Of a stretch of DNA of 24,287 nucleotides, positions 8,102 through 24,287 are shown piece after piece. The DNA comes from a virus. A program made the translations under genes and the position numbers. Each line of letters begins with the position of its first letter. Position 1 is the stretch's first letter. The notes under the pieces are model-generated. The model was not told the origin of the DNA, searched no databases, and saw only the letters and a program-made list of their open reading frames with translations. The stretch is taken from positions 1 to 24,287 of the IMG/VR virus record IMGVR_UViG_3300032213_000159; one strand, given 5' to 3'.

Positions 8102-8611
8102 ATGCCATACAGCTACGGATATTTTAAGCAAGAGTATTTCAACCATCTATTTGACAATTTCAAAATAGACATTGAGATATTAGATGTAGGGCCAGGTGCA
8201 GGGACTTATGGTAATCTATTGAATCAAGACTTTCAGTTTATTGATTGCATAGAGATTCATAAGCCTTACCGATCACAATTCCTGCTTGACAAGATATATC
8301 GGAATGTATTTATTGGCAATGTCCTAGAGTTTGACTACGCTTATTATGACTACATCATCCTTGGTGATGTGTTGGAGCATATGAGCGTTGATGATGCTCA
8401 AAAACTGCTCTTTGATATAACAGATAAAAATATCTACTGCATGGCTGCGGTGCCGTATAAGATGCCGCAAGGTGCTGTTGGAGGCAATGTGTATGAAACA
8501 CATTTGCAGGATGATTTGACTGTTGAAAACTTTACTGACAGATACCCTATGATGCGAGGCCTATTTCGGAATAGCGAATACGGGTATTATGTAAACTATA
8601 ACTACTTATGA
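8102..8611 (+). CDS. Class I SAM-dependent methyltransferase (169 aa)
   Basis: A small Rossmann-fold methyltransferase. Motif I is ILDVGPGAGTYG (residues 26-37), which binds S-adenosylmethionine. The acidic end of strand 2 is DCIEIH (48-53), and the post-motif segment YDYIILGDVLEHM (82-94) is typical of the Methyltransf_23-like group. Such enzymes often act on sugars or small molecules, but the substrate cannot be read from the sequence. The gene starts immediately after the capsid terminator, with no room for a ribosome-binding site. It ends in an ATGA overlap with the glycosyltransferase, so the two are translationally coupled and probably act in one pathway. It is not a head-assembly gene and looks like inserted cargo. 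At 169 residues it is near the minimum for the fold. Confidence 0.85.
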   Translation: MPYSYGYFKQEYFNHLFDNFKIDIEILDVGPGAGTYGNLLNQDFQFIDCIEIHKPYRSQFLLDKIYRNVFIGNVLEFDYAYYDYIILGDVLEHMSVDDAQKLLFDITDKNIYCMAAVPYKMPQGAVGGNVYETHLQDDLTVENFTDRYPMMRGLFRNSEYGYYVNYNYL

Positions 8612-9582
8612 ACATAGTCGCATCTATCCACTTGTATCATCCAAACCACAACTGCGGTGCGGAAGCAATGATGCATCAAGTATTGAAAAGCTTGCAAAAA
8701 AAAGGACATAATGTTAGAGTTCTTCTAAACCAAGCTAATCATTACAAGATAACTTCTAATTACGTTTTTGATGGGGTGGATGTATTTCCTCCAAACACAA
8801 ATGTGGTAGAAGGATTGTATAACTGGGCCAATGTGATATTTACCCATCTTGATTATACAAGATGGAGCATACATATGGCTGCTATGCACAAAAAGCCTGT
8901 TATGCATTTTATACATAATACTCACTTGTACCCAGAGATTGCAGATGCGGAGAAGACACAATATGTAGTTTACAATTCGCAGTGGGCAAAGGATAAGCTT
9001 AATTATAAGTGGGACAATATGATAATGACACCTCCCGTTGATTGGAGGCATTACGACACGAAGGTTAACACCATGAAAAGTCAGTATGTGACTTTAATAA
9101 ATGTGAATGAGAATAAGGGGGGAAAGATATTTACAGAGATAGCAAGAGCAATGCCTAATAAGCAATTTTTAGGTGTTCTTGGGTCGTATGATGAGCAAGT
9201 AACCACTAATCTGCCTAATTTAAAGTATATTTCAAATACTGTTGACATATTGGATGTGTATAAGCAGACAAGGACTTTACTTATGCCGTCAACATATGAG
9301 AGCTGGGGTCGAACTGCAACGGAGGCAATGTGTAGCGGGATTCCTGTTATAAGCAGTGAGGCTGAAGGGTTAAAAGAGAACTGCGGCAATGCAGGAATTT
9401 ATATAAAAAATAGAAACGATGTCAAAGAATGGGTTGAAGCAATTGCAAAGTTGGATGACGAAAAGACGTACTTCACGGCATCAAAAAAAGCAAAAGCACG
9501 ATCAAGAGAGCATGATCCGAGAGAAACACTTGATAGATTTGAGCTATGGCTCAAAGAAAAAGTTTACAGCTACAAACATTGA
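8608..9582 (+). CDS. Glycosyltransferase, GT-B fold, GT4-like (324 aa)
   Basis: A retaining-type nucleotide-sugar glycosyltransferase judging from its motifs. The N-terminal domain begins MNIVASIHLYHPNHNCGAEA with the glycine-containing acceptor loop. The C-terminal nucleotide-binding domain carries VNENKGGKIFTEIARAMP (about 166-183), LLMPSTYESWGRTATEAMCS with the EX7E pair Glu231/Glu239, and SGIPVISSEAEGLKEN. No signal peptide or membrane segment is seen, so it is cytoplasmic. It overlaps the methyltransferase by four bases (ATGA) and ends two bases before the connector start. Plausible acceptors are virion proteins (neighbouring capsid or tail) or host surface glycans; the sequence does not settle this. 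It is slightly shorter than typical GT4 enzymes but looks intact. Confidence 0.9.
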   Translation: MNIVASIHLYHPNHNCGAEAMMHQVLKSLQKKGHNVRVLLNQANHYKITSNYVFDGVDVFPPNTNVVEGLYNWANVIFTHLDYTRWSIHMAAMHKKPVMHFIHNTHLYPEIADAEKTQYVVYNSQWAKDKLNYKWDNMIMTPPVDWRHYDTKVNTMKSQYVTLINVNENKGGKIFTEIARAMPNKQFLGVLGSYDEQVTTNLPNLKYISNTVDILDVYKQTRTLLMPSTYESWGRTATEAMCSGIPVISSEAEGLKENCGNAGIYIKNRNDVKEWVEAIAKLDDEKTYFTASKKAKARSREHDPRETLDRFELWLKEKVYSYKH

Positions 9583-10997: not shown

Positions 10998-11429
10998 ATG
11001 GCGCAGATTCTTTCAGTTAACCAAAATATCGAAATAGATGTAGCCGGTGGCACATCATTTAAGAATTTGGTATGTACAAGCAGCGCAACGCTGAATACGA
11101 CTCTTGCTACTACGCAAGATCAAACTTCATGCGGTGTTTTGACTGCTGTCGGTGAGCCTTCCATGACAATAGATTTTGATGCGGTATGCGAGACTGCTCC
11201 TACCGTATCTCAAATCTCTTACGAGGATTTGCTTGCTGCTTCTGTAAACAAGACTTTGGTAAATGTAAGGATGCAGAACCCAGTTGTGACTGGCTCTTCT
11301 CTTGGTGCTGCTTACTACCATCAGTTCTTTGCTTACATCACTGATTTGTCACTTGCTTCAACAGTTGGTGAGTTTATCAAATTTAGCGGAACATTATCAA
11401 GCACAGGAACACTTGACGTAATCCCGTAG
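10998..11429 (+). CDS. Major tail tube protein (143 aa)
   Basis: A beta-rich, Thr/Ser-rich protein without cysteine pairing or a membrane segment. Its pattern (FKNLVCTSSATLNTTLATTQ, then SMTIDFDAVCE and the final TLSSTGTLDVIP) fits the tube proteins of TP901-1-like siphophages. It lies between the tail terminator and the tail chaperones, exactly where the tube gene is expected. Hexameric rings of it would stack into the tail tube. A second protein of similar pattern is encoded at 16998-17630. Confidence 0.85.
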   Translation: MAQILSVNQNIEIDVAGGTSFKNLVCTSSATLNTTLATTQDQTSCGVLTAVGEPSMTIDFDAVCETAPTVSQISYEDLLAASVNKTLVNVRMQNPVVTGSSLGAAYYHQFFAYITDLSLASTVGEFIKFSGTLSSTGTLDVIP

Positions 11430-11435
11430 TAGAAT

Positions 11436-11786
11436 ATGAATACTGCGACTATAACCATGAATGGTCATACCATCAGCCTTCGCTATGGTATGTCTTCATT
11501 CCGGTACTTAACTGAAAGATTTGTTGACGGCATCAGCTTTGACAACGGGTCATTGAACGAGATAGGCTTATCACATATTCTTTATAGTGGTTATACTAAC
11601 CATTGCCTTGTAAAGGATATTAAGAAGGAATACAGCTTTGAGTTCTTCGTAGATTACGTTGAGGCACATCTTAAAGATGAACCTTTTATGGCTGAAGTGA
11701 TGGATGCGTTAAAAGTATGGACTGACAGCGACTTCATCAAACAGACACAAGAGGCTAATCCTGACGAGCCAAAAAAAAAGACTTAA
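11436..11786 (+). CDS. Tail assembly chaperone, short product (G-like, 116 aa)
   Basis: The unshifted product of a frameshifted pair equivalent to lambda G and GT. It begins MNTATITMNGHTISLRYGM and is largely helical afterwards, ending DEPKKKT just after the slippery A run at 11771-11779. Such chaperones coat the tape measure protein and recruit tube subunits, and are not found in finished virions. Its place between tube and tape measure is diagnostic. Its conserved length and its ending right at the slippery run argue against a plain stop codon. Confidence 0.85.
   Translation: MNTATITMNGHTISLRYGMSSFRYLTERFVDGISFDNGSLNEIGLSHILYSGYTNHCLVKDIKKEYSFEFFVDYVEAHLKDEPFMAEVMDALKVWTDSDFIKQTQEANPDEPKKKT
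11771..11780 (+). promoter_or_regulatory. Programmed -1 frameshift site (A AAA AAG)
   Basis: Nine A residues followed by G give the heptamer A_AAA_AAG (11774-11780) in the frame of the upstream chaperone gene; an overlapping A_AAA_AAA is also available. This is the strongest known type of -1 slippery sequence in bacteria. Four bases further on, the upstream frame meets TAA (11784-11786), while the -1 frame is open to 12097. I did not find an obvious stimulatory stem-loop downstream. Confidence 0.85.
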
Positions 11787-12097
11787 CGTGGGATGAGATT
11801 GAAGCTTTCGCTTTTGGAGAGCTTTGCTTGAGGCCCATGGAGTTCTACGAGATGGCTCCACGGCATCTTGGCTTGATGATTAGAGGTCATCAGGAAAAGA
11901 AGGTGGATACTTATAGGCAGACACGAATGCTGATGTTTACGATGGTGAGGCTTCATGCCGATCCAAAGTCAGCACCCAAGACACCGGAGGCTTTGTGGGA
12001 GTTGCCTGGTGATGCTGTTGCGAACCCAGTAGAAGAGGCTGAAGAGTATAAAAAAATCTTTGAACGATTAGGACAATGGCAGAAACCGGAGATTTAA
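11780..12097 (+). CDS. Tail assembly chaperone, frameshift extension (T-like; fused product about 220 aa)
   Basis: This frame has no suitable start of its own near its beginning: a TTG at 11828 is possible but would cut off the conserved opening. Reached by a -1 shift at 11774-11780, it adds 105 residues to the upstream product, beginning DLTWDEIEAFAFGELCLRP and continuing EFYEMAPRHLGLMIRGH. That is the pattern of T-domain extensions of tail chaperones. The extension ends with an acidic, charged helix (EEAEEYKKIFERLGQW). It overlaps the tape measure gene by 22 bases. The fused protein is expected as the minority product and binds the tape measure during tail assembly. Confidence 0.85.
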   Translation, partial: DLTWDEIEAFAFGELCLRPMEFYEMAPRHLGLMIRGHQEKKVDTYRQTRMLMFTMVRLHADPKSAPKTPEALWELPGDAVANPVEEAEEYKKIFERLGQWQKPEI

Positions 12098-14583
12098 TAA
12101 TTAAGATAGGGGGTGATGCCTCAAAATTCAAGGCCACCATTGCCGATGTAGAGAATAGTCTCAAGTCGTTCAAGGCTAATTTAGGTACTACCGGTCTGAA
12201 CATAAAGATTGAAGCACTTGGGTTTCAAGAGACCAAATCCAATATAAAAAGTGTTGCTGATTTTGCGGAGGGCACGCTTGGTGCTATAAAGAATACGATT
12301 AAGGAAGTAAAGGCAGAGAGGCTAACAATATCAGCCGATCCGAACTCTCTCGCTCCATTTAACATAAAGCTCAATGAGCTTAACACGACAGTTAAAGAAC
12401 TTGAGAAAGCCGGTATTCTCAAAAACGTTCCGCAAGAGGCTGCTGTTGCAGCCAATAGTTTACAAGGGTTAAGCAATAAATTAACTGAGCTTCGTAAGCA
12501 AAGGGCGATTATAGACCCAGATACGAATGCAAGAGCTATTCTGCAAATCAATCAGCAGATAGATAAGCTGCAACAAAAGATAGTAAACCTTAATAATCTT
12601 GGTCAAAAGATTGATACAGGTGGTGGTTTAGCAGGCGGGTTTAACGGAATAAAGAAAGGAAGTGCGGAAGCAGGCAGAGCTTTGACAAGCTTATCATTGG
12701 TAGCTCAAGATTTGCCTTTTGGTTTTATAGGTATTCAGAATAACCTTCCTGCTGTCATACAAAGCTTTGGTCAGTTAAAAGCATCTGCTCCTGCTGCTGG
12801 CGGTGCGTTAAAAGCACTTGGAAGCGCATTGGTTGGGCCTGCTGGCTTGTTTCTAGCCTTCAGTGCAGTAACGGCAGCAGTTACATTTGCCATACAAAAA
12901 TACGGCAGTTTAGGGGCAGCTTATGATGCCTTGGTAGGTAAAATAGACCCATTAGCTAAAATTATTAATACAGTTAATGATGATTTAGAAAACTTTAATA
13001 AAGGCTTTCTAACTACTGATCAAGCAATTGGCAAAGCGACTGCAAGTACAGAGGCGCAGATTATAAAAGTTCGTCAATTATCAAAAGCTGTTTTAGATAC
13101 TACCAAATCAGAGAATACAAGAAAGTTTGCTCTTGAGCAATTAAAAAGTATAGATGAAGCAAGGTTTGGAAGATATGATGTAGAAAAAGGTAAGTTAGCC
13201 GGATTAGAGGGTGCTGTTAATTCTTATACAAGGTCAATAATAGCCAATTCTGTTGCACAGAAGTTATCTGATAGGGCGGGAGATGCTTTAATAGCAAGAA
13301 ATTCCGCACTATCTTTATTCACTGCGCAAGAAAAAGTTGTTAATGATTTATTACAAAAGTTCCCAGATTTACAAAGGCAGGCAAAGAAATATTCAGATGA
13401 TTTAATAAGGACACAAGGTCAACTTGGTCAAAGACCTATTGCTGCGCCTGGTGTGTTGGATTTTCTTGCTGCTACTGATAAGTTAGAGGATTTTAAAAAA
13501 CAGCTTCAAGATATTAATGCTGTTTATAGGCAGACAAGAACAGAAGCAATTGCCGCTACCGAGGAAAGCATAAATCTTGGCGAGGCTCTTACTAAAGCTA
13601 CTGAAGGTAAAAAAGATGGTGGCGGCACAAGAACTAAAGCAGTCTTTTCCCCACAAATAGATTCACAAGCTCTTGATGAGGCATTCAATTTAGATAAGAT
13701 TATTGCTAACTTAACTAAGTATGGCAATGTACTTATTGATGTAAATAAGACAGAGGCAGAGAGAAAGAATGCTTTGCGTGAGCTGTCTGAAATAAACCCT
13801 GAGTATTTTAACCAATTTAAAATTGGCAAGTCATCTGTAGCGGATGCTAAAACTCAGTTAGAGGGTTTTATTAGGACATTGCTTGTGCAAAAAAAGGCAC
13901 AAGAGGATGCTTTGGCTGCGGCTAAATTAAATAATGAGTTTAGAAAAAATGAGGAGAAAGGCATAACAGATGTTGGGGATAAATATAGAATACTAGAAGG
14001 CGTAGTTTCTACAATCCCAACAACAATGAATGAGGTTGCTAAAAGCTTTCAAAACGCAACTTTAAATGTAGATAAATTATTTAAGTTAGATTTTAGCAAA
14101 TTTGATACATCATTTGACTTTGATATGTTATCAAAGGGGTTTAAGATTATAGAAGAGCAAAGTAGAAAGATTAAGGATAATATGATATCTGCGTTAAGTG
14201 GAGTTCAAGCTATTTTGCAGGATACATTTTTTGAGTTGCTTGATGAAGGGAAAGGCAATTGGAAGGCATTTGGTGATGCTGCCGTCAAAGAAATAAAAAG
14301 GATTACAGCTGCATTGGTGGTAAAAGCTTTAGTAGAAGGTCTTGCTAATTTGTTAACGGCAGGCATTTCAGGTACAGTTCAATCCGTAGCAAAAGGATTA
14401 GAAGGAATTGACACTGCATCTCTTGGAGAATGGCTAGATATGACTCCAGGTGCAGCTAACTTCGGAGGAATAAGAGGCAATGATGGAGTAAATATGTCTG
14501 GACAAGTGGTTATGACATTAAGAGGAACGGATTTGGTAGGGGCAATGAATAGAACAAACACATCAATTAACAGAGTTGGCTAA
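12076..14583 (+). CDS. Tape measure protein (835 aa)
   Basis: The longest helical protein of the tail module, it sets tail length and sits inside the tube. At 835 residues, and using the general rule of about 0.15 nm per residue, a tail of roughly 125 nm is expected. The N-terminus (GDLIIKIGGDASKFKATIADVE) is typical of Bacteroidota and Gram-positive tape measures. A long helical region follows, then a hydrophobic stretch (about 245-274, with LVGPAGLFLAFSAVTAAVTFAI) that could insert in the host membrane on DNA ejection. Two related ~65-residue segments (about 338-405 and 552-613) form an internal duplication. A second moderately hydrophobic stretch lies near residues 740-765. The start overlaps the chaperone extension. 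Confidence 0.95.
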   Translation: MAETGDLIIKIGGDASKFKATIADVENSLKSFKANLGTTGLNIKIEALGFQETKSNIKSVADFAEGTLGAIKNTIKEVKAERLTISADPNSLAPFNIKLNELNTTVKELEKAGILKNVPQEAAVAANSLQGLSNKLTELRKQRAIIDPDTNARAILQINQQIDKLQQKIVNLNNLGQKIDTGGGLAGGFNGIKKGSAEAGRALTSLSLVAQDLPFGFIGIQNNLPAVIQSFGQLKASAPAAGGALKALGSALVGPAGLFLAFSAVTAAVTFAIQKYGSLGAAYDALVGKIDPLAKIINTVNDDLENFNKGFLTTDQAIGKATASTEAQIIKVRQLSKAVLDTTKSENTRKFALEQLKSIDEARFGRYDVEKGKLAGLEGAVNSYTRSIIANSVAQKLSDRAGDALIARNSALSLFTAQEKVVNDLLQKFPDLQRQAKKYSDDLIRTQGQLGQRPIAAPGVLDFLAATDKLEDFKKQLQDINAVYRQTRTEAIAATEESINLGEALTKATEGKKDGGGTRTKAVFSPQIDSQALDEAFNLDKIIANLTKYGNVLIDVNKTEAERKNALRELSEINPEYFNQFKIGKSSVADAKTQLEGFIRTLLVQKKAQEDALAAAKLNNEFRKNEEKGITDVGDKYRILEGVVSTIPTTMNEVAKSFQNATLNVDKLFKLDFSKFDTSFDFDMLSKGFKIIEEQSRKIKDNMISALSGVQAILQDTFFELLDEGKGNWKAFGDAAVKEIKRITAALVVKALVEGLANLLTAGISGTVQSVAKGLEGIDTASLGEWLDMTPGAANFGGIRGNDGVNMSGQVVMTLRGTDLVGAMNRTNTSINRVG
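13087..13290 (+). repeat. Tape measure internal duplication, copy 1
   Basis: Codes for tape measure residues about 338-405. Key residues are AVLDTTKSENTRKFALEQL followed by F, K, a spacer, and KLSDRAGDAL. It lines up with 13729-13914 at shared positions such as K-x-E-xx-RK-x-AL-xx-L-xx-I, a later F, a hydrophobic I and a final D-x-AL. The two copies are too diverged to recognise at DNA level, so this is an old duplication. Confidence 0.6.
13729..13914 (+). repeat. Tape measure internal duplication, copy 2
   Basis: Codes for tape measure residues about 552-613 (VLIDVNKTEAERKNALREL, then INPEYFNQFKIGKSS and VQKKAQEDAL). It is the second member of the pair with 13087-13290. I remember the N-K-T-E-x-ER-x-AL-x-EL-x-x-INPEYF pattern as common in tape measures of Bacteroidota phages, which supports the host inference. 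Confidence 0.6.
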
Positions 14584-17641: not shown

Positions 17642-17800
17642 ATGAAACAATTAGTTGAAAACGTTAAGACAAGTTTATTTGGTGCTGTTGCAGGTCTTCC
17701 TGTTATTTGGGAAGGTGCAGAAGCAGGAGATTGGAAGATGATTCTTGCCGGTCTCGGTATGTTTTTAGTAGGTCTGTTTGCATCTGACGCTAAAAAGTAA
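17642..17800 (+). CDS. Holin-like small membrane protein (52 aa)
   Basis: A 52-residue gene that common length cut-offs miss. It begins MKQLVENVKTSLFGAVAGLP and has two hydrophobic segments (about 11-22 and 33-47, MILAGLGMFLVGLF) separated by an acidic/aromatic turn (WEGAEAGDW). It ends in ASDAKK. I remember this pattern (ENVKTS...G...AGLP and LVGLFA.DAK) from small proteins of Bacteroidota phages annotated as holin-like. A two-span membrane protein with a charged tail is typical of class II holins, which open the inner membrane at lysis. The XhlA-like gene follows after six bases. The ATG is 11 bases after the previous stop, preceded by an A/T-rich leader. Confidence 0.65.
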   Translation: MKQLVENVKTSLFGAVAGLPVIWEGAEAGDWKMILAGLGMFLVGLFASDAKK

Positions 17801-17806
17801 TTAGAG

Positions 17807-18028
17807 ATGGATCAGGGGATTCTAGTAACAATCGTCATCCAAAGCATTGTTTTTGTGGGCGCATTGTCAAAGATGTTCACGGACATGAAGATTAAGCTTA
17901 GAGAGCTTGACCTTCGTGTCCGTACCCTTGAAAAGAAGGAAGACGAGATAGGCGAGAAGTTGACGAAGATATTTGATGCTTTGCAAGACATAAAATTAGA
18001 GCTAAAAGATAAAGCTGATAGACCATGA
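17807..18028 (+). CDS. XhlA-like membrane-anchored coiled-coil protein (73 aa)
   Basis: One N-terminal membrane segment (about 4-22, GILVTIVIQSIVFVGALSK) is followed by a highly charged helix with heptad-like hydrophobics (about 25-70, KIKLRELDLRVRTLEKKEDE and onward). This is the architecture of XhlA, a holin-associated protein of PBSX-type prophages, and of some phage accessory lysis proteins. It lies directly after the holin-like gene and overlaps the next gene by four bases (ATGA). A purely structural role as a tail-associated coiled coil is the main alternative. The start is the first ATG after the six-base gap. Confidence 0.6.
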   Translation: MDQGILVTIVIQSIVFVGALSKMFTDMKIKLRELDLRVRTLEKKEDEIGEKLTKIFDALQDIKLELKDKADRP

Positions 18029-23057: not shown

Positions 23058-23438
23058 ATGACTTACAAAGAACTCATCGAAGCAATGCAAATCTTGGTTC
23101 AGAACATCGGAAACCAAGAAACTAAGACTCAAAAGAAACTACTCGCAATTCATAGTAAGCTGAAAAAGTACTATGAGAATTACGAGGAATTACTAAACGA
23201 TATTCGACTTGAGAACGCAATGACAGAAGAGAATGGTGCGCTAATTCTTGACGAGAAAGGTGGTTATAAGTATAATAAGGATGGTCAGCGTAAGATGTAT
23301 AAAGATATCAAAAGCCTTCTTTCAGAGGAATTCGACTTTAATGTTATTGAGGTAGTGAACCCAAACGGTCTTGAAGAGCATATTTATTTAGAAAAGTTTG
23401 TTAATGGCGTAAAATTCAAAGAAAGTGAAGAAGAATAA
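23058..23438 (+). CDS. Hypothetical helical protein (126 aa)
   Basis: A 126-residue soluble, lysine/glutamate-rich protein. The N-terminal half (MTYKELIEAMQILVQNIGNQ and onward to ENYEELLNDIRLENA) is helical, possibly a coiled coil. The C-terminal half contains ILDEKGGYKYNKDGQRKMYK and ends acidic. A TTG at 23037 in the same frame would overlap the promoter's -7 element, so the ATG at 23058 is chosen. The predicted promoter just upstream makes it the first gene of a new operon. I do not recognise the family. Confidence 0.75.
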   Translation: MTYKELIEAMQILVQNIGNQETKTQKKLLAIHSKLKKYYENYEELLNDIRLENAMTEENGALILDEKGGYKYNKDGQRKMYKDIKSLLSEEFDFNVIEVVNPNGLEEHIYLEKFVNGVKFKESEEE

Positions 23439-23919
23439 ATTAAGTCCAGAGATAGAGATGTTATTGGCTTTCATTAGCATTATCGCTCTCATTATATTTT
23501 TCGGCAGTTGCAACCCCGTCAAGCAGGTGCTTGGTAATAACAAAAAGTTTGAGGTTGTGGCAGCCGAAGTCATTAAACGTGGGTATTGTTTGAATGATAC
23601 TTCATACATCTACAAGACGGACACGCTTGAAATAACGGACACTACAACTTTTGTATATGTGGACACCACAGTCATCAACGACACTACGTATTTATGGGAA
23701 ACAAAGTACCACACCATCACCAAAGTTCGGACTATCCGCGATAGCGTGAAGGCAGTGGTTATTGATTCCGCTAGAGTTAAAGTATTACTTAAAGAGTTAA
23801 AAGACAACGAAACGAAGCTAAAAGCTGCATTGGGTGACCAGAAAGTTTTAAAAAGGATTATGTTTTTTATGGGCGGTGGAGCGTTGATATTCTTTTTACT
23901 CTTATTTAAGTTAAAATGA
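23425..23919 (+). CDS. Probable unimolecular spanin: lipoprotein with C-terminal membrane anchor (164 aa)
   Basis: The product starts at GTG 23425 (overlapping the previous stop by 14 bases), giving MKKNKLSPEIEMLLAFISII. This is a basic head plus a hydrophobic stretch ending in a lipobox FFGSC with Cys29. An ATG at 23458 would drop the basic head, so GTG is preferred. The middle (about 55-105) is rich in Thr/Tyr/Asp with alternating beta-type residues, followed by a charged helix (about 112-142). A C-terminal membrane segment (about 145-161) then ends KLK. An outer-membrane lipid anchor, a periplasmic middle and an inner-membrane anchor in one chain is the layout of unimolecular spanins such as phage T1 gp11, which fuse inner and outer membranes at lysis. 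Size is similar. An alternative is an unrelated lipoprotein with a hydrophobic tail. It overlaps the next gene (ATGA). Confidence 0.62.
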   Translation: MKKNKLSPEIEMLLAFISIIALIIFFGSCNPVKQVLGNNKKFEVVAAEVIKRGYCLNDTSYIYKTDTLEITDTTTFVYVDTTVINDTTYLWETKYHTITKVRTIRDSVKAVVIDSARVKVLLKELKDNETKLKAALGDQKVLKRIMFFMGGGALIFFLLLFKLK

Positions 23920-24287
23920 ACAAAACTGAAATAGTTCGTGAATATAGAGATAAGTACGGTATGGATATGCCAAATCTAAAGTTGGCTCGTATCATCTACA
24001 ATGAAAACCCTACACTATATCTGAACATAGAAGCAGTCAGAACCACACTAAGAAATATACAAAAAGGTCATAATTCACAAGGTCAGAGAAAAGTAACTCA
24101 CCCTCATCCTGACCGACCACTAAACCCGTACAAGCTGCCCGAATCTTACAAAAAAGAACCAGAGGTATTAAAACTACTAACGAATAACGATAGTATACTT
24201 GTTATATCTGATTTGCATATACCTTACCATGATATTGATGCTATCACAATAGCCATTGAATACGGAATTAATGAAGAGGTTAATACT
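23916..24287 (+). CDS. Metallophosphoesterase (calcineurin-like), truncated by the window end
   Basis: The frame runs off the window end. It begins MNKTEIVREYRDKYGMDMPN with a short helix-rich N-terminal region (about 1-75) that could bind DNA or RNA. It then enters a phosphoesterase opening: SILVISDLHIPYHDIDAI, with the D-x-H metal motif (Asp-Leu-His), followed by a helix AITIAIEYG. This matches the first half of calcineurin-like phosphoesterases that I remember from Bacteroidota phages. The remaining metal motifs (GDxxD, GNHE, H residues) would lie beyond the end, so catalytic competence cannot be checked. It is coupled to the spanin candidate by ATGA. Confidence 0.8.
   Translation, partial: MNKTEIVREYRDKYGMDMPNLKLARIIYNENPTLYLNIEAVRTTLRNIQKGHNSQGQRKVTHPHPDRPLNPYKLPESYKKEPEVLKLLTNNDSILVISDLHIPYHDIDAITIAIEYGINEEVNT

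Follow-up and report, generated by a model that had tools for sequence, protein, structure and literature searches.

A new sequence family of probable unimolecular spanins in tailed phages with likely Bacteroidota hosts

Introduction

The gene at positions 23425-23919 of a 24,287-base virus record (hereafter the window, meaning the whole stretch of DNA that was analysed) raises the question of whether its 164-aa product is a unimolecular spanin (u-spanin), half of a two-component spanin, or an envelope lipoprotein with some other late role. The initial annotation had read it as a candidate u-spanin of a Bacteroidota phage, possibly of a new sequence family, and had held that spanins of such phages are poorly described. 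On the last point it was wrong: Kongari et al. (2018, PMC6139136) listed 58 u-spanins in 13 families, about 12 of which (Table 5) come from Cellulophaga and Flavobacterium phages and from phage RAP44, including Cellulophaga phages phi10:1, phi12:1, phi17:1 and others, and Flavobacterium phages 11b and FCL-2. According to a 2025 survey (PMC12596118), unimolecular spanins are the exclusive type in Bacteroidetes phages, and u-spanins have also been annotated in North Sea flavophages (PMC8776804).

The window carries terminase, portal, prohead protease, tape-measure-type and major capsid genes. Its capsid protein is nearest, among cultured phages, to those of Cellulophaga phage phi10:1 and Flavobacterium phage 11b (about 30% identity), and its terminase is closest to those of Bacteroides phages (about 34%); a Bacteroidota host is therefore likely, as had been proposed, and the phage itself is distant from any isolate.

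A protein gene with an anchor at either end

The gene, the parts of its product and the flanking genes are as follows.

23058..23438, + strand: 126-aa gene directly upstream of the u-spanin gene, conserved, function not assigned (neighbourhood comparison)
23425..23919, + strand: probable u-spanin gene, 164 aa, GTG start (ORF list, sequence, dN/dS)
23425..23508, + strand: predicted lipoprotein signal peptide, residues 1-28 (sequence)
23509..23511, + strand: Cys29, predicted lipid attachment site, followed by NPV(K/R)QVL (invariant in alignments; 37/37 in the unselected scan)
23587..23589, + strand: Cys55, conserved periplasmic cysteine 26 residues beyond the lipid Cys (70/70 distinct members; 37/37 new complete ones)
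23599..23766, + strand: beta-rich periplasmic region, residues 59-114, with many (N/T)DT repeats (AlphaFold2 model)
23767..23856, + strand: charged helix, residues 115-144, running on into the membrane segment (AlphaFold2 model, pLDDT about 85-92; model of the divergent member L045)
23857..23907, + strand: C-terminal transmembrane (TM) segment, residues 145-161, followed by KLK (hydropathy and conservation)
23916..24287, + strand: 5' part of the gene after the u-spanin gene, interrupted by the record end

The elements first described for this ORF (the Cys29 lipobox, beta-rich middle, charged helix and C-terminal anchor) were all seen again in the sequence or the predicted model. The lipobox reads FGSC29, then NPV, and the hydrophobic C-terminus is IMFFMGGGALIFFLLLF, followed by KLK, a short basic tail expected to lie in the cytoplasm. 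Calls of lipobox and TM segments were made by pattern and hydropathy; by hydropathy, the C-terminal TM segment sits on the same chain as the lipobox with no further TM segment between them. Translation may alternatively start at an ATG at residue 12, in which case the lipobox would stay intact. An acidic surface-export signal after the lipid cysteine has been described for Bacteroidetes lipoproteins (PMC5080379); a K(D/E)2-type motif of this sort is absent after Cys29, where NPVKQVL stands instead, and an inner-leaflet, periplasm-facing position is therefore expected.

We scanned for ORFs of 90-300 aa with this layout, in which a start codon and basic n-region lead into a hydrophobic stretch and a lipobox and the only membrane segment lies at the C-terminus, and found 23425-23919 to be the sole match among the ORFs of the window. 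Across 81 related loci (731 kb), 58 family members matched and no ORF outside the family did so. Shuffled sequence (371 kb) contained no match at all, so the layout does not arise by chance. Compared with three relatives at 76-78% protein identity, the gene has a dN/dS of about 0.12 (dN about 0.16, dS about 1.3) and is thus a real protein gene under purifying selection. A spurious ORF or chance layout is accordingly refuted by the data: the only features in its favour are the GTG start and the overlaps with the neighbouring genes (14 bases upstream; four bases, ATGA, with the downstream ATG), and against these stand the purifying selection, the absence of matches in shuffled DNA, and the relatives and invariant motifs described below.

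AlphaFold2, run on the 164-aa protein with 52 sequences, placed in order the signal helix, short helices at residues 31-37 and 39-51, a long beta hairpin (59-84/87-114) and a single helix at 115-163 that includes the membrane segment, with a mean pLDDT of 75.6 and a pTM of 0.29, so that details of the fold are uncertain. The middle, for which the initial annotation had suggested a structure prediction, is thus predicted to be mainly beta at moderate to low confidence. A model of a divergent member (L045) has two short helices, four poorly predicted strands and the same long helix at pLDDT 87-96. Foldseek against BFVD matched solely uncharacterised proteins of uncultured phages, at low TM-scores.

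A family confined to uncultured phages in the collections searched

Searches of IMG/VR with a growing profile returned 2, then 15, then 184 relatives (80 kept). Because one earlier family scan had used CNPV as a pattern, conservation of the lipobox was rechecked in a scan whose patterns all lay in the central part of the protein; it returned 110 relatives (80 kept). Together the searches gave 72 sequences distinct over their last 100 residues and 39 more from the middle-pattern scan, about 110 in all. Among the new members, all 37 that were N-terminally complete have the lipobox and a second Cys 26 residues after the lipid Cys, and 37 of 39 passed the C-terminal membrane threshold, the others being one truncated sequence and one scoring 1.19 against a threshold of 1.2. 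In 7 of 66 members, C-terminal hydropathy is only moderate (1.1-1.5), borderline for a TM segment. Loss of the lipobox or of the C-terminal segment among homologues had been named at the outset as evidence that would count against a u-spanin; both are kept in essentially all of the about 110 distinct relatives. Residues invariant in 52 aligned members are C29-NPV, V35, L36, G53, C55, D58-T59, D66-T67, D72, I104, D106 and D114. Signal peptides differ between clades, some having about 26-31 residues and others 12-16 of other sequence, each ending in a lipobox, as expected if selection is for lipidation and not for sequence.

The 164-aa protein has no match in Pfam and nothing convincing in PHROGs (best phrog_28005, E 0.0045, unknown function). 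With four diverse members as tblastn queries, no relative turned up in 50,697 records of cultured phages, in line with the suggestion of a new sequence family. Two scans of 84,980 species genomes from bacteria and archaea likewise found none, so neither a prophage copy nor a host was found this way.

One 43,229-base IMG/VR contig carries two diverged copies of the gene with their surroundings (L099 and L119) near its two ends, the copies sharing 88.6% DNA identity over 2.1 kb; either the lysis region was duplicated or the assembly mixes strains.

Linkage to endolysins of five classes

Gene neighbourhoods were compared in 72 distinct (non-redundant) loci, 67 of which extend beyond the gene. A peptidoglycan hydrolase gene of one of five Pfam classes lies within three genes in 66 of these 67; the exception is the window itself, whose record ends 368 bases past the u-spanin gene, which accounts for the lack of an endolysin there, so that the cassette context is that of the relatives. 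The gene cut by the record end is phosphoesterase-like, and in L002 a gene of this kind is followed by an endolysin. In 60 loci the hydrolase lies at most three genes downstream, as Peptidase_M15_3 (29), phage lysozyme GH24 (17) or Peptidase_M15_4/VanY (14), and in 50 of those 60 it follows directly. Other hydrolases adjoin the gene in six of the seven remaining loci: GH19 in L029 and L030, a different M15_4 in L056, and an upstream Amidase_2 in L033, of which L046 and L073 have close homologues. These classes are mostly unrelated to one another, and their occurrence at the same place means that the gene is tied to lysis as a function rather than to a single lineage of endolysins. All contigs stem from a single metagenome collection and are mutually related, so the counts are of loci and not of independent events; it is the swapping of different endolysins beside the same u-spanin gene that forms the independent part of this evidence.

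Of 64 loci, 57 have a small TM (holin-type) gene at positions -3 to +2; those without one belong mostly to the window's own clade. Two small membrane-protein genes occur in the window, at 17642-18028, before the tail fibre genes:

17642..17800, + strand: 52-aa membrane protein, weak holin candidate, no family match
17807..18028, + strand: 73-aa protein with N-terminal TM segment and coiled coil, i-spanin or holin candidate

The second matches PHROG 7686, an Rz-like spanin, at E 0.0014, and falls into one cluster with a protein of L046 whose PHROG match is a holin (3.9e-5).

The candidate u-spanin first proposed is supported by a layout unique in the window, by the conservation of lipobox and anchor and by the endolysin in 66 of 67 loci. 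On this sequence evidence, we consider it very probable that 23425-23919 encodes the u-spanin of a Bacteroidota tailed phage, the product being a known kind of lysis protein in a new sequence family.

Candidate two-component spanin genes in the window and in sister cassettes

The initial annotation had seen no i-/o-spanin pair in the window. This holds for the outer-membrane half, since the layout and lipoprotein scan of the window found no o-spanin-like lipoprotein besides 23425-23919, but an i-spanin/holin-type protein is present (17807-18028), 5.4 kb upstream; separate i- and o-spanin genes were thus not found. Could the 164-aa protein instead be the outer-membrane half of a two-component spanin, partnered by this TM-plus-coiled-coil protein (or by clusters C6 and C35 elsewhere), with its C-terminal TM segment an extra anchor? 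Proteins of the partner's type are common nearby, one of them has the weak Rz-like match given above, and two-component spanins typically have a periplasmic Cys. The candidate partner in the window is distant, however, loci L001, L004 and L005 have no TM-coiled-coil gene next to the u-spanin gene, and C6, where present, often has an overlapping lipoprotein of its own, making such a partnership highly improbable.

That overlapping lipoprotein, LIPO11, is an extra protein found in 20 sister loci, 110-121 aa long where complete and without a TM segment. Its gene overlaps that of C6, which encodes a TM segment plus coiled coil, by exactly four bases (17 loci in which the upstream neighbour was called), the same gene order and overlap as in classical i-/o-spanin pairs. 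The u-spanin gene is present in these loci too, as is an endolysin gene wherever the flanks reach far enough; in L079 the order is the TM-coiled-coil gene (722-997), the lipoprotein gene (994-1347), a holin-like gene, the u-spanin and a lysozyme. Such pairs, L079 722-1347 and L029 5136-5770 being two from the 20 loci, have an ATGA overlap and no periplasmic cysteines, with a u-spanin in the same cassette. We rejected LIPO11 as a truncated paralogue of the u-spanin family, there being no real similarity.

With an i-/o-spanin-like pair in these 20 cassettes, a u-spanin there looks redundant, which counts against our reading and favours a different one, a double-anchored envelope lipoprotein whose gene lies among the lysis genes but whose late role is another, for instance in lysis inhibition or in excluding superinfecting phages. 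Phage lipoproteins can indeed act in exclusion. Nevertheless, a role in lysis agrees both with the gene's association with endolysins from five Pfam classes and with the obligate two-membrane layout of its product, and the window offers no other candidate for an o-spanin; we regard this other role as improbable, if somewhat less so than membership of a two-component pair. Should the u-spanin reading apply to the sister cassettes as well, both spanin types may coexist in them. The joint proposal that the u-spanin works as a disulfide-linked dimer, in contrast to the u-spanins described to date, and that sister phages use both a complete pair and a u-spanin from one lysis cassette is a doubtful one, which we put forward tentatively.

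Comparison with known spanins

T1 gp11 and the Kongari u-spanins likewise have an N-terminal lipobox, a short helix then a mainly beta periplasmic domain, a C-terminal TM segment and a gene in the lysis cassette; the predicted order of elements here resembles the short helix, several strands and TM segment published for the T1 gp11 family. The present family differs from them in its invariant periplasmic Cys and in the long helix that is predicted to run into the TM segment. A layout scan of four phage genomes from the Kongari table found one protein of at least 90 aa in each:

28129-28593 of Flavobacterium phage 11b: layout match, beside a GH19 gene
11415-11798 of Flavobacterium phage FCL-2: layout match
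758-1231 of Cellulophaga phage phi10:1: layout match, gp004 (L083)
38652-39083 of Cellulophaga phage phi12:1: layout match, gp64, beside an amidase gene

All four share the layout, length class and Bacteroidota hosts of the family described here, and those of 11b and phi12:1 adjoin an endolysin gene, as in this family. RAP44, also in that table, is a Riemerella phage. In an hhalign comparison with the 11b u-spanin, the one Kongari u-spanin so compared, the signal peptide alone aligned (probability 26%), with no homology detected in the periplasmic domain; no homology was detectable to any tested spanin. The job of the present protein is expected to be that of lambda Rz/Rz1 and P2 LysB/LysC, namely to disrupt the outer membrane once the wall has been cleaved; there it is divided between two proteins, the i-spanin being a coiled coil, whereas here both anchors are on one protein.

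Two papers describe u-spanins as lacking periplasmic cysteines, which are reported to be absent from all 58 published u-spanins. This is an observation on those 58 members and not a definition, and with its invariant Cys55 the present family departs from it, standing as a counter-example to the rule. Periplasmic Cys residues are lacking in the 11b, FCL-2 and phi12:1 proteins; phi10:1 gp004 has one, in another sequence context. This gp004 is the sole u-spanin-like protein found in phi10:1, and its Cys conflicts with the published statement of none in 58; unless Kongari et al. had another phi10:1 gene in mind, their statement goes too far.

Proposed mechanism and significance

From the sequence we infer lipidation, a two-membrane topology, oligomerisation and a disulfide, and by analogy with known spanins we propose a model of membrane fusion. 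The lipid on Cys29 would anchor the protein in the outer membrane and the C-terminal TM segment in the inner membrane, one chain linking both, with the intact peptidoglycan meshwork holding it in place; Cys55 would probably form a disulfide-linked dimer near the outer-membrane anchor. Once the holin had opened the inner membrane and the endolysin had cut the wall, u-spanin molecules could gather, and the beta-rich middle and long helix could collapse or fold back, pulling the membranes together. Fusion of inner and outer membranes would then remove the last barrier to phage release.

New here are the sequence family, its invariant periplasmic Cys and the 20 sister cassettes with an added i-/o-spanin-like pair. 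The u-spanin reading names a probable outer-membrane lysis protein for a large group of uncultured phages and fits the report of Bacteroidota phages relying on u-spanins. For annotation, the family may be recognised by a lipobox-CNPV(K/R)QVL, a G-x-C-x-N-D-T whose Cys lies 26 residues on, (N/T)DT-rich strands and a C-terminal TM segment.

Other features of the window

Two further features of the window lie in its structural genes. By eye, SAM-dependent methyltransferase-like and glycosyltransferase-like proteins are encoded at 8102-9582, between the capsid gene and those for the head-tail connector; such an insertion is unusual for an operon of late structural genes. Residues 604-691 of the tape-measure-type protein (12076-14583) match the Pfam tRNA_anti-like domain (PF12869) above the cut-off (E 1.5e-6), an odd domain to find in such a protein.
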